DNA from: Nocardioides sp. YIM 152315
GTDB taxonomy: Bacteria > Actinomycetota > Actinomycetes > Propionibacteriales > Nocardioidaceae
Direction of reading: 5' to 3'
Assembly (NCBI RefSeq): GCF_029210375.1
Contig: NZ_JARGER010000043.1
Location: forward strand, 372,001 to 436,000
Length of the DNA: 64,000 bases
In this document: piece by piece, positions 50,989 through 54,284 of the stretch
Layout: every line of letters begins with the position of its first letter
How positions within the stretch are numbered: the stretch's first letter is position 1
Translations under genes and position numbers: made by a program
Notes under the pieces: model-generated
The model's input: the letters and a program-made list of their open reading frames with translations, nothing else
Told to the model about the DNA's origin: nothing
Databases searched by the model: none

Positions 50989-52191
50989 TCAGCTGTTGGA
51001 GAACACTGCCGGGTCGTCCGGACCGCGACCCGCCCACGTCCAGGCGTACGCCGGGTCCTCGACGGCCAGGCCGCCCTCGCCGAGGTCCAGCGGGGCGAAG
51101 GTGTCGACCATGACCGCCGACTCCTCGAAGTACTCGACGCCGAGCGATGCCTCGATCGCGGCCGGCTGCGGGCCGTGGGCGTAGCCGCCCGGGTGCAAGG
51201 AGATCGACCCCAGGCCGATGCCCGAGCCCTTGCGCGCCTCGTAGTCGCCGCCGACGTAGAACATGACCTCGTCGCTGTCGACGTTGGAGTGGTAGTAGGG
51301 CACCGGGATCGAGAGCGGGTGGTAGTCGACCTTGCGCGGCAGGAAGTTGCACACGACGAAGTTGTGGCCCTCGAACACCTGGTGCACCGGCGGCGGCTGG
51401 TGCACCTTGCCGGTGATCGGCATGTAGTCCTCGATGTTGAACGTGTAGGGGTAGAGGCAGCCGTCCCAGCCGACCACGTCGAAGGGGTGGGTGGCGTAGG
51501 TGAGCCGGGTGCCGACGATGCCGGCACTGGTGCGGTGCTTGACCAGCACCGCGACGTCCGCACCCTCCTGCGTGAACGTCTGCTCGGGTCCGTGCAGGTC
51601 GCGCTCGCAGTACGGCGCGTGCTCCAGCAGCTGGCCGTAGCGTGAGAGGTAGCGCTTCGGCGGGCTGATGTGGCTGTTGGCCTCGATCGCGTAGAGCTGG
51701 CTGGGCTGGGCCGGCACCCACCGGTGCGTGGTCGCCCGCGGCACGATCACGTAGTCGCCGGCGCGGTAGCCCACCACCCCGAAGACCGTCTCGACCACGC
51801 CGGCGCCCGCCTCGACGTACACGCACTCGTCGCCGATCGCGTTGCGGTAGTAGGGAGACGCCTCGCTGCCGGTCACGACGTACGAGATCCGCACGTCGTT
51901 GTTGCCCAGCACCAGCCGCCGGTCGGTGACGGCGTCGCCGCCGGTCTCGAGGTCGTGCAGCCTGAGGTGCCGCGGCTTCAGCGGGTGGTTGGGGGTCCGC
52001 GACTGGTCGGGCAGCTCCCAGACCTCCGAGCCGACGATCGCCGACGGCACGCCGCGGTGGTAGAGCAGCGAGGAGTCGGAGGAGAAGCCCTCCTCTCCCA
52101 TCAGCTCCTCGTGGTAGAGGCGACCCTCGGGGTCACGGTGCTGGGTGTGCCGCTTCGGGGGCACCTCGCCGATCCGTCGGTAGTGGGCCAT
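50989..52191 (-). CDS. hmgA: Homogentisate 1,2-dioxygenase
   Basis: 400 residues. Iron ligands are visible near residue 300 (YYHSNVDSDEVMFYVGG, His and Glu) and near 333 (LHPGGYAHGPQP, His). FEGHNFVVCNFLPRKVDYHPL is the family core. It opens the ring of homogentisate to maleylacetoacetate in tyrosine and phenylalanine breakdown. ATG at 52189-52191. It is divergent from the unknown gene and fahA, with an operator-like palindrome in the 75-nt gap. Confidence 0.95.
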   Translation of the reverse strand: MAHYRRIGEVPPKRHTQHRDPEGRLYHEELMGEEGFSSDSSLLYHRGVPSAIVGSEVWELPDQSRTPNHPLKPRHLRLHDLETGGDAVTDRRLVLGNNDVRISYVVTGSEASPYYRNAIGDECVYVEAGAGVVETVFGVVGYRAGDYVIVPRATTHRWVPAQPSQLYAIEANSHISPPKRYLSRYGQLLEHAPYCERDLHGPEQTFTQEGADVAVLVKHRTSAGIVGTRLTYATHPFDVVGWDGCLYPYTFNIEDYMPITGKVHQPPPVHQVFEGHNFVVCNFLPRKVDYHPLSIPVPYYHSNVDSDEVMFYVGGDYEARKGSGIGLGSISLHPGGYAHGPQPAAIEASLGVEYFEESAVMVDTFAPLDLGEGGLAVEDPAYAWTWAGRGPDDPAVFSNS

Positions 52192-52210: not shown

Positions 52211-52227
52211 CGTTCGATAGTCGAACG
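52211..52227. promoter_or_regulatory. Candidate operator between hmgA and the fahA operon
   Basis: CGTTCGA-TAG-TCGAACG is a perfect 7-bp inverted repeat. A related half-site CGTTCGCTATCCGA follows at 52232-52245. IclR- or TetR-type regulators bind such sites. The divergent layout suggests joint control of both transcripts. No regulator gene is adjacent. Confidence 0.55.
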
Positions 52228-52266: not shown

Positions 52267-53112
52267 GTGTCAACGCAACCCCTGTCCACCGCCTGGCGGG
52301 GCCTGGTCGACGATGCCGCCATCTTCCCCCCGGGCGATGCGCCGCTGCCGGACGCGGCCGCCGCGCACCAGCGCCGGCGGAGCGACGAGCACGCCGACCT
52401 GGTCGGCACGTTCGTCGCGCGCGACACCGACCTCCCGGCGCTGAAGAGCACCCCCCTCGCGCTCTCGGTGGTCGTGACCGGAGGCGCCGGCCAGATCGCC
52501 GGGGCGGCCGGTCTGGCCCGCAAGCTCCACATCGCCGTCGAGGGCCTCGAGATCGCGCTGCGCGACCCCGCCGACCCGGTCGGCGCCGCCCGGCGCGTCG
52601 TGGCCGCGGTCGACGCCGCCCGCGGCGAGGGCCTGCTCGACGACCACGTCCCGGTCTTCGTCGAGATCCCGGCCTCCTGCCCCGAGCCGACCTGGCTCGC
52701 CACTGCCGACGAGGTGGCCGCCGCCGAGCACCGGCTGAAGTTCCGCACCGGCGGGCTCGAGGCCTCGGCGTACCCCACCTCCGGCACCGTGGCCGCCTGG
52801 ATCGATGCGGCGCTCGACCGCGAGACGGCGTTCAAGTGCACCGCCGGGTTGCACCGCGCGGTGCGCCACACCGGCGACGACGGCTTCGAGCACCAGGGCT
52901 TCCTCAACGTCCTCGTGGCCACCCGGCTGGCGTTCGACGGCAGCCCGCGGCCCGAGGTCGAGGCCGTCCTCGAGCAGCGTGAGCCGGCCGTCCTCGTCGA
53001 GGGGGCCGGCGAGATCGACCTCGCCGGCGCGCGGCGCTGGTTCACGTCGTTCGGGTCCTGCTCGGTCACCGAGCCGCTCGACGACCTGCTGGCACTGGGA
53101 CTCGTGCCATGA
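52267..53112 (+). CDS. Unknown protein between hmgA and fahA
   Basis: 281 residues, not recognised. It opens with AWRGLVDDAAIFPPGDAPLP, and contains a region with conserved-looking HIAVEGLEIALRD, PVFVEIPASCPEPTWL and KFRTGGLEASAYPTSGTV, then FKCTAGLHRAVRHTGDDGFE and QGFLNVLVATRLAFDG. Alternating hydrophobic strands followed by helices suggest a barrel-like fold. No signal peptide. GTG at 52267; its stop overlaps fahA by 4 nt, so it belongs to the homogentisate pathway operon. The pathway step missing from the cluster is maleylacetoacetate isomerisation. A role there is only a hypothesis. Confidence 0.75.
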   Translation: MSTQPLSTAWRGLVDDAAIFPPGDAPLPDAAAAHQRRRSDEHADLVGTFVARDTDLPALKSTPLALSVVVTGGAGQIAGAAGLARKLHIAVEGLEIALRDPADPVGAARRVVAAVDAARGEGLLDDHVPVFVEIPASCPEPTWLATADEVAAAEHRLKFRTGGLEASAYPTSGTVAAWIDAALDRETAFKCTAGLHRAVRHTGDDGFEHQGFLNVLVATRLAFDGSPRPEVEAVLEQREPAVLVEGAGEIDLAGARRWFTSFGSCSVTEPLDDLLALGLVP

Positions 53113-54284
53113 GCACCTGGGTCCCCGGTGCCGACGAAGGCCACTTCGGCGTCGACAACCTGCCGTACGGCGTGTTCTCCCGCCCCGGCGAGGAGCCCCG
53201 CGTGGGCGTGCGGATCGGCGACTTCGTGGTCGACCTCGCGCCGATCGCCGCCGCGGAGATGCTCGACGTCCACCACGTCTTCCAGGAGCGGACGCTCAAC
53301 CCCCTGATGGCCCAGGGCCGGCGGGTTCGCGAGTCCGTGCGGGCCTGGGTGACCGGCCTGCTCACCGACGACACCGAGCGCGACCTCGTCGAGCCGTCGC
53401 TGGTGCCGCTCGGCGACGTCACGCTGCACCTACCGGTCGACGTCGCCGACTACGTGGACTTCTACGCCTCCGAGCACCACGCCTCCAACGTCGGGAGGAT
53501 CTTCCGCCCCGACGGCGAGGCGCTGCTGCCCAACTGGAAGCACCTCCCGGTCGGCTACCACGGCCGCGCCGGCACGGTCGTCGCGTCCGGCACGCCCGTC
53601 GTGCGGCCGAGCGGCCAGCGCCGCGGCGACGAGCGCCCATCGTTCGGACCGTCGACGCGGCTCGACATCGAGGCCGAGCTCGGCTTCGTGGTCGGCACCG
53701 GGTCCGAGCTCGGCGCGCCGGTCTCGTACGACGCGTTCGCCGACCACGTCTTCGGCGTCGTCGGGCTCAACGACTGGTCGGCGCGGGACATCCAGGCCTG
53801 GGAGTACGTGCCGCTGGGGCCGTTCCTCGGCAAGTCCTTCGCGACGTCGATCTCGCACTGGGTCACGCCCCTGGAGGCACTCGACGCGGCATGGGCCGAC
53901 CTGCCCGGCCAGGACCCGGAGCCCCTCCCCTACCTGGGACCCGGCGCCACCCGCGGGCTGGACATCGACGTCGAGGTGGTCGTCAACGGCGAGATCGTCA
54001 GCCGTCCGCCGTACCGCACGATGTACTGGTCGCCGGCCCAGATGCTCGCCCACCTCACCGTCAACGGCGCTTCCCTGCGCACCGGCGACCTCTACGCCTC
54101 GGGCACCATCAGCGGACCCGAGCCCGACCAGCGCGGGTCGCTGCTGGAGATCGGGTGGGGCGACGAGACCGCGTTCCTCGCCGACGGCGACGCGGTGGTG
54201 CTGCGCTACACCGCACCGGGCACCGGCGGCGGCCGGATCGCGCTCGGCGAGGTCAGCGGACGGATCGAACCCGCCGACGGGTGA
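53109..54284 (+). CDS. fahA: Fumarylacetoacetase
   Basis: 391 residues. An N-terminal SH3-like part (DNLPYGVFSRPGEEPRVGVRI) precedes the FAH catalytic domain with YVDFYASEHHASNVGRIFRP, RLDIEAELGFVVG (metal Glu residues), GLNDWSARDIQAWEYVPLG and FLGKSFATSISHWV. It cleaves fumarylacetoacetate to fumarate and acetoacetate, the last step of tyrosine breakdown. ATG coupled to the unknown upstream gene by a 4-nt overlap. Confidence 0.96.
   Translation: MSTWVPGADEGHFGVDNLPYGVFSRPGEEPRVGVRIGDFVVDLAPIAAAEMLDVHHVFQERTLNPLMAQGRRVRESVRAWVTGLLTDDTERDLVEPSLVPLGDVTLHLPVDVADYVDFYASEHHASNVGRIFRPDGEALLPNWKHLPVGYHGRAGTVVASGTPVVRPSGQRRGDERPSFGPSTRLDIEAELGFVVGTGSELGAPVSYDAFADHVFGVVGLNDWSARDIQAWEYVPLGPFLGKSFATSISHWVTPLEALDAAWADLPGQDPEPLPYLGPGATRGLDIDVEVVVNGEIVSRPPYRTMYWSPAQMLAHLTVNGASLRTGDLYASGTISGPEPDQRGSLLEIGWGDETAFLADGDAVVLRYTAPGTGGGRIALGEVSGRIEPADG

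Follow-up and report, generated by a model that had tools for sequence, protein, structure and literature searches.

In the breakdown of tyrosine and phenylalanine, the isomerase that acts between HmgA and FahA is described as MaiA, a glutathione-dependent, zeta-class glutathione transferase with the GST fold. Its gene closes the order hmgA-fahA-maiA in Sphingobium herbicidovorans, and the coordinates of further records among the matches listed, from Sphingobium, Roseomonas and Paracoccus, likewise place maiA beside fahA. Two further cis-trans isomerases bear on the present study, namely MDMPI (PF11716), a helical DinB-like protein that acts in Actinobacteria on a similar ring-cleavage product, and maleate isomerase, a cysteine-based enzyme of the Asp/Glu racemase superfamily. 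In deoxyribose-phosphate aldolase (DERA, DeoC), a class I aldolase barrel, the Schiff-base lysine is on strand 6, and strand 7 carries another lysine. Regarding bacteria in which the step has no assigned gene, the passages cited from two studies of the Bacillus cereus group describe operons of hppD, fahA and hmgA and no identifiable maleylacetoacetate isomerase gene (PMC4457819, PMC6193087), and the legend to the homogentisate cluster of Rhodococcus ruber names no isomerase gene (PMC6498646).

The locus examined here belongs to Nocardioides sp. YIM 152315 and lies in the window, by which we mean the whole stretch of 64,000 nucleotides that was analysed. It comprises hmgA, fahA and, between them, a gene of no named family that we call X (Table 1). 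The 3' end of X shares the ATGA at 53109-53112 with fahA, an overlap of 4 bases, which confirms the 281-residue frame coupled to fahA that had been described in the sequence-only reading of this DNA; the protein contains AWRGLVDDAAIFPPGDAPLP. It had also been called unfamiliar, as is borne out by searches of Pfam and NCBIfam, in each of which 0 families matched at E <= 1. A PDB sequence search with the single protein gave no credible relative, no structure in the viral library matched at E <= 0.001, and no relative was confirmed in the viral contig scan. Homologues in plasmid records are labelled hypothetical protein, or no gene is listed at the site. We ruled out a chance open reading frame, since 46 of 58 relatives (own genome counted) have a homologue and the homologues contain invariant residues. 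A relative of the GST proteins was ruled out by the lack of any Pfam or NCBIfam family at E <= 1, and a relative of MDMPI by the Pfam result. The 34 rows of the X profile A1 matched 9 families, which do not include PF11716 or any aldolase family, and neither of these matched X itself; CbiZ appeared as a weak Pfam match in 5 of the 34 rows (best E 0.00018).

Table 1. Features of the X locus, in coordinates of the window
Feature	Position	Strand	Remarks
hmgA	50989..52191	-	homogentisate 1,2-dioxygenase, divergent type; transcribed away from X; PF04209 and PF20510 above cut-off
Candidate operator	52211..52227		perfect 17-bp inverted repeat CGTTCGATAGTCGAACG; promoter region common to hmgA and X
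X	52267..53112	+	gene of no named family; 281 aa, GTG start, TGA end at 53112
K158 codon	52738..52740	+	proposed Schiff-base lysine; predicted strand 6 (156-160)
K190 codon	52834..52836	+	proposed second active-site lysine; predicted strand 7 (189-192)
C265 codon	53059..53061	+	proposed nucleophile or acid-base residue; just after predicted strand 8 (259-264)
fahA	53109..54284	+	fumarylacetoacetase; TIGR01266 417.7 bits against cut-off 375.3

The product of hmgA scored 51.9 bits against TIGR01015, far under the cut-off of 510.75, with both HgmA Pfam domains above cut-off, and is 73% identical to a Pseudonocardia protein annotated as homogentisate 1,2-dioxygenase. A 4-hydroxyphenylpyruvate dioxygenase above the family cut-off is encoded on a different contig of the same genome, which also carries a separate DERA. 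The maiA family TIGR01262 had 0 matches at E <= 0.001 across the whole genome, and the earlier statement that hmgA and fahA are present and maiA is absent therefore holds.

The reading that we favour, with a probability of roughly 0.6, is that X encodes a maleylacetoacetate cis-trans isomerase that replaces the glutathione-dependent MaiA between HmgA and FahA and is built as an aldolase-like Schiff-base barrel. Considered apart from fold and chemistry, the isomerase function stands slightly firmer, with context, conservation and predicted structure pointing to both the substrate and the reaction. If true, X would account for a reaction in tyrosine and phenylalanine breakdown for which many glutathione-free bacteria lack an assigned gene, and the aldolase barrel would have gained a new use in Schiff-base cis-trans isomerisation. 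The gap in the Bacillus cereus group would not be directly solved in this manner, since the operons described there, in the passages cited above, do not list X. Literature searches that joined DERA to maleylacetoacetate and homogentisate, or asked for a glutathione-independent maleylacetoacetate isomerase in Rhodococcus, found nothing, and one combining maleylacetoacetate, TIM barrel and isomerase matched only another subject. No title describing the X family was found in this material; subscription papers for the most part and bioRxiv preprints lay outside its scope and may hold an earlier description.

Regarding genomic context, 151 distinct copies of the X protein were gathered by searching with X itself and not with hmgA or fahA, in a set that is biased to close relatives, and 137 of them have hmgA or fahA at a distance of 600 bp or less (133 beside fahA, 106 beside both). 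The family is thus not found mainly away from these two genes, and the earlier proposal that X is the missing isomerase is well supported as far as context goes, the function itself being a predicted one. The fragment L085 was left out of the collected copies, and only L046, which is non-adjacent, was counted from the weak fragment matches L044-L050. When the first 30 loci were inspected with 1.5-kb flanks, hmgA and fahA were both present at 25, fahA alone at 3 and neither at 2; the corresponding fetched flanks of the best 80 of 580 confirmed places held both genes in 67 cases, fahA in 6, hmgA in 2 and neither in 5. In all 5 genomes whose X locus has neither gene, fah was found above cut-off elsewhere. 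The orientation of hmgA at these loci is divergent in Nocardioides and Kribbella and collinear in Rhodococcus and Amycolatopsis, and X nearly always adjoins fahA despite the varied gene order, with hmgA intervening in L105 and L115. A neighbour that is kept through rearranged orders suggests selection on the linkage of X and fahA, rather than mere common descent.

Gene rows in other organisms are of the same kind. On a Priestia plasmid, the order is hppD, X, fahA, a transaminase gene, hmgA and an amino acid permease gene; the transaminase is annotated as histidinol-phosphate transaminase and presumably uses tyrosine, and the row is the entire route from tyrosine, with X as its only unnamed gene. 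The row in Tsukamurella reads hppD-hmgA-X-fahA, and one Streptomyces plasmid has hmgA-X-fahA followed by two CoA-transferase subunits. On a plasmid of the cyanobacterium Kovacikia, X directly precedes fahA, and hmgA lies approximately 2 kb off on the other strand. Considering the slot of maiA beside fahA in Sphingobium and the other genera named above, X occupies the place that is held by maiA elsewhere.

The distribution of X follows that of fah. Among the 58 relatives, X and fah occur together in 46, fah alone in 5 and neither gene in 7, and X never occurs alone, with fah being counted from a TIGR01266 match of at least 340 bits, a threshold that admits 5 genomes under the cut-off of 375.3. 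Accordingly, fah is present in 46 of 46 relatives with X versus 5 of 12 without it (Fisher p 2.6e-6). In a sample of 296 genomes from the phylum, X was found in at least 16, a lower bound because no more than 8 first-look candidates per genome were scored, fah above cut-off in 29, and both in 15 (p 1.9e-16); since relatedness among the genomes is not taken into account, the two Fisher values are a guide only. A seventeenth match of the X profile (E 8.4e-4) was dropped as chance. None of the 296 genomes had maiA above the TIGR01262 cut-off, and weaker GST-like matches were present in 52, so that the co-occurrence of the family with the pathway in the absence of maiA, which had been proposed as a check, was observed. 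The plasmid collection holds X in 24 records, none of them proteobacterial, with fahA approximately 150 bp or less from X in every one. Two scans of the collection for fahA gave 119 records each, of which 60 were listed; these include all 24 records with X, and of the 25 non-proteobacterial fahA plasmid records among the matches listed, only that of Nocardia farcinica is without X. Outside Actinomycetota, X occurs in Bacillota and in one cyanobacterium.

Structure prediction, which had also been suggested, gave a confident eight-stranded TIM barrel, (beta/alpha)8, for X of the window (AlphaFold, pLDDT 95.9), and the model of Rhodococcus X is an eight-stranded barrel too (pLDDT 97.1). X would share with MaiA the proposed reaction and the slot beside hmgA and fahA, whereas MaiA has the GST fold and X, with no match to TIGR01262, is a predicted TIM barrel. 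VIA-align placed DERA first for both models (window, Z 16.3 over 208 residues at 3.1 A; Rhodococcus, Z 15.3 over 206 residues at 3.3 A), with a modest lead of approximately 2 over the best barrel other than DERA, homocitrate synthase (Z 14.2 and 13.4, respectively). Foldseek agreed with DERA for the window model (best E 7.3e-05); for the Rhodococcus model, it ranked transaldolase first and other barrels above any DERA, with 1mzh, listed simply as an aldolase, at rank 12, and the likeness to DERA consequently rests on VIA-align and the window model. The profile-profile comparison of X with DERA was not significant with thin or deeper profiles, and 48 of 120 column-shuffled profiles scored as high. 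A deeper register that pairs K158 and K190 with two DERA lysines was given no weight because shuffled profiles score equally. The best PDB sequence for profile A1 was a DERA (E 0.82), and that for the deeper profile A2 was not.

Taken together with the strand-6 and strand-7 lysines, which X matches by strand order only, these results suggest that X resembles the class I (Schiff-base) aldolase barrel. It would share with DeoC and its kind the fold over the full length and the lysines on the two strands, and would differ from them in its partner gene, which is fahA, and in a sequence similarity that is not significant; a phosphate substrate, as used by DERA, is not expected.

The residues that are most strictly kept fall on the predicted barrel strands. 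Among 137 distinct adjacent copies, R160 is present in 137, D15, E133 and T192 in 136 each, K158, K190 and C265 in 135 each, H196 in 134, E95 in 133 and R200 in 132. D15 is placed on strand 1, E95 on strand 4, E133 on strand 5, K158 and R160 on strand 6, and K190 and T192 on strand 7, and the Rhodococcus model agrees on the strand placement of the conserved residues. The adjacent copies without K158 are L043 and L264, which also lack C265, and those without K190 are L064 and L264; at K158, K190 and C265, L264 reads T, T, P and L043 reads A, K, R. Residue 210 (codon 52894-52896) is Q in X of the window, H in 135 of the 137 distinct adjacent copies, and Q in 2.

Provided that the isomerase function is right, a Schiff-base mechanism has a little better than an even chance, and we infer every chemical step of it. 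K158, K190 and C265 would be the core of the mechanism, and any of them might be the residue that bonds to the substrate. In the form proposed, the C4 ketone of maleylacetoacetate would react with K158 on strand 6 to give an imine, which would pull electrons from the cis C2=C3 bond, C265 or another group would add transiently at C2, the C2-C3 bond would rotate before the added group leaves, and hydrolysis would free fumarylacetoacetate for FahA. R160, H196, R200 and R256 may hold the carboxylates, and K190 may tune K158. Compared with maleate isomerase, the proposal has in common a cofactor-free cis-trans isomerisation via transient addition of an enzyme cysteine, whereas the folds differ and X has a single conserved cysteine, C265, plus lysines. 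From the conserved residues, X probably works covalently and without a thiol cofactor. A wider and tentative reading, to which we give somewhat less than an even chance, is that X represents a third class of maleylacetoacetate isomerase, unrelated to the other two. It would be a TIM barrel of the aldolase type that works through a lysine iminium, whether or not a cysteine adduct forms transiently, and needs no low-molecular-weight thiol, and it would belong to an unnamed family that extends over Actinomycetota, Bacillota and Cyanobacteriota.

A Schiff-base lysine suits several reactions, and many of the fold neighbours of X are aldolases or other Schiff-base barrels. X may accordingly act otherwise on maleylacetoacetate or on a side product, as a hydratase, tautomerase, retro-aldol enzyme or hydrolase, or by recycling a cyclised by-product, and some genomes with hmgA and fahA lack X, as a side activity would predict. 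We consider another reaction of this kind unlikely, since fumarylacetoacetase is encoded beside X in 133 of the 151 copies, so that the product needed there is fumarylacetoacetate, and the Priestia and Tsukamurella rows contain no other isomerase candidate.

The sequence-only reading had argued that a different isomerase is to be expected in Actinobacteria because they make mycothiol rather than glutathione. This argument is not supported as stated; a family tied only to mycothiol makers was rejected on account of the copies in Bacillota and Cyanobacteriota, and with the conserved residues suggesting a covalent enzyme, we replaced it with the thiol-free reading. A related explanation is that a mycothiol-dependent enzyme of the MDMPI family, encoded elsewhere, isomerises maleylacetoacetate and that X is an accessory protein, which, for example, matures or stabilises the dioxygenase. 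A Streptomyces study, in the passage cited, lists an MDMPI-family gene among those for tyrosine catabolism (PMC11012174), and in the Rhodococcus passages cited the equivalent step with maleylpyruvate is attributed to MDMPI (PMC3937715, PMC6498646). The present genome has 16 MDMPI_N matches, all of them outside the window, and the explanation may apply to this organism too. Two Streptomyces plasmids (L177 and L206) also have MDMPI_N-type genes, at 3 to 4 kb from X. The reaction of MDMPI is analogous to that proposed for X, and both occur in Actinobacteria, whereas the predicted fold of X differs and X serves Bacillota and a cyanobacterium too, organisms in which mycothiol synthesis is not known. 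Moreover, the D, E, K, R, H and C residues that are invariant on the barrel strands look like an active site, not the surface of a chaperone. An accessory role for X appears quite improbable, and the isomerase reading is preferred.

An important observation on the proposed active site comes from decayed copies. Four genomes (G018, G023, G028 and G036) contain an intact hmgA-X-fahA cluster and, in addition, a decayed X without hmgA or fahA. By tblastn, the residues at K158/K190/C265 are C/A/T in the relic of G018, H/S/S in that of G023, which aligned in two pieces, T/R/S in G028 and R/gap/A in G036; thus, 0 of 12 are kept in the relics versus 12 of 12 in the intact copies. A decayed X in a genome that also has an intact cluster suggests that the pathway locus was replaced by another copy. 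In G018 and G036, no more than 150 bp separate the relic from a homologue of the window's pirin, after which comes a homologue of the window's adenine glycosylase, and in G023 and G028 the pirin homologue is approximately 4 kb from the relic. Since pirin and adenine glycosylase are also encoded near hmgA in the window, the relics probably mark an old pathway locus. The decayed copies are loci L253, L257, L259 and L265. At L079, a second copy that does not adjoin fahA has R, A and G at the three positions, versus K, K and C in the fahA-linked copy of the same locus. Eight non-adjacent copies keep all three residues, and the genomes that contain them all have a long fah match at another site. 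Considering these cases together, K158, K190 and C265 tend to be lost once the link to the pathway is lost, a rule that is broken by the adjacent copies L264 and L043.

Loci with hmgA and fahA and without X are also found. In five relatives (G001, G011 with two loci, G015, G020 and G031), and likewise in G292 and Nocardia farcinica, fahA directly follows hmgA and X is neither between the pair nor beside it; and in G002, G025 and G336, X is located elsewhere in the genome. In the phylum sample, 14 of the 29 genomes with fah are without X, and 8 of the 14 belong to one genus with large genomes. Bacteria of this type must either have a different isomerase, perhaps a member of the MDMPI family, or do without one. 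That no isomerase is needed at all, with maleylacetoacetate isomerising spontaneously or FahA taking the cis isomer and X serving otherwise in aromatic catabolism, would accord with such pairs and with the Bacillus cereus group papers, which in the passages cited found no isomerase gene and one of which refers to a maleylacetoacetate hydrolase known from some Bacillus (PMC4457819, PMC6193087), but we hold it to be very improbable because X is kept beside fahA in three phyla and its orphan copies decay, which indicates that X matters where the pathway is present. Judged by eye, a small thioesterase-like protein is encoded 3' of fahA in the X-less loci of G001 and G011. By the same inspection, the hmgA-fahA pairs without X at L270 and L272 have downstream of them a small gene of thioesterase type and then another small gene, a possible alternative solution to X.

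The 75-bp gap between hmgA and X contains the candidate operator given in Table 1. Of 62 distinct homologous divergent regions, 50 have the half-site TCGRAC/GTYCGA and 37 the run GTCCGYTWW, where base shuffles give means of 5.1 and 0.2, respectively; the counts serve as a guide only because the regions are related. With the inverted repeat and the half-sites recurring in divergent regions, hmgA and X-fahA are probably under one common regulator.
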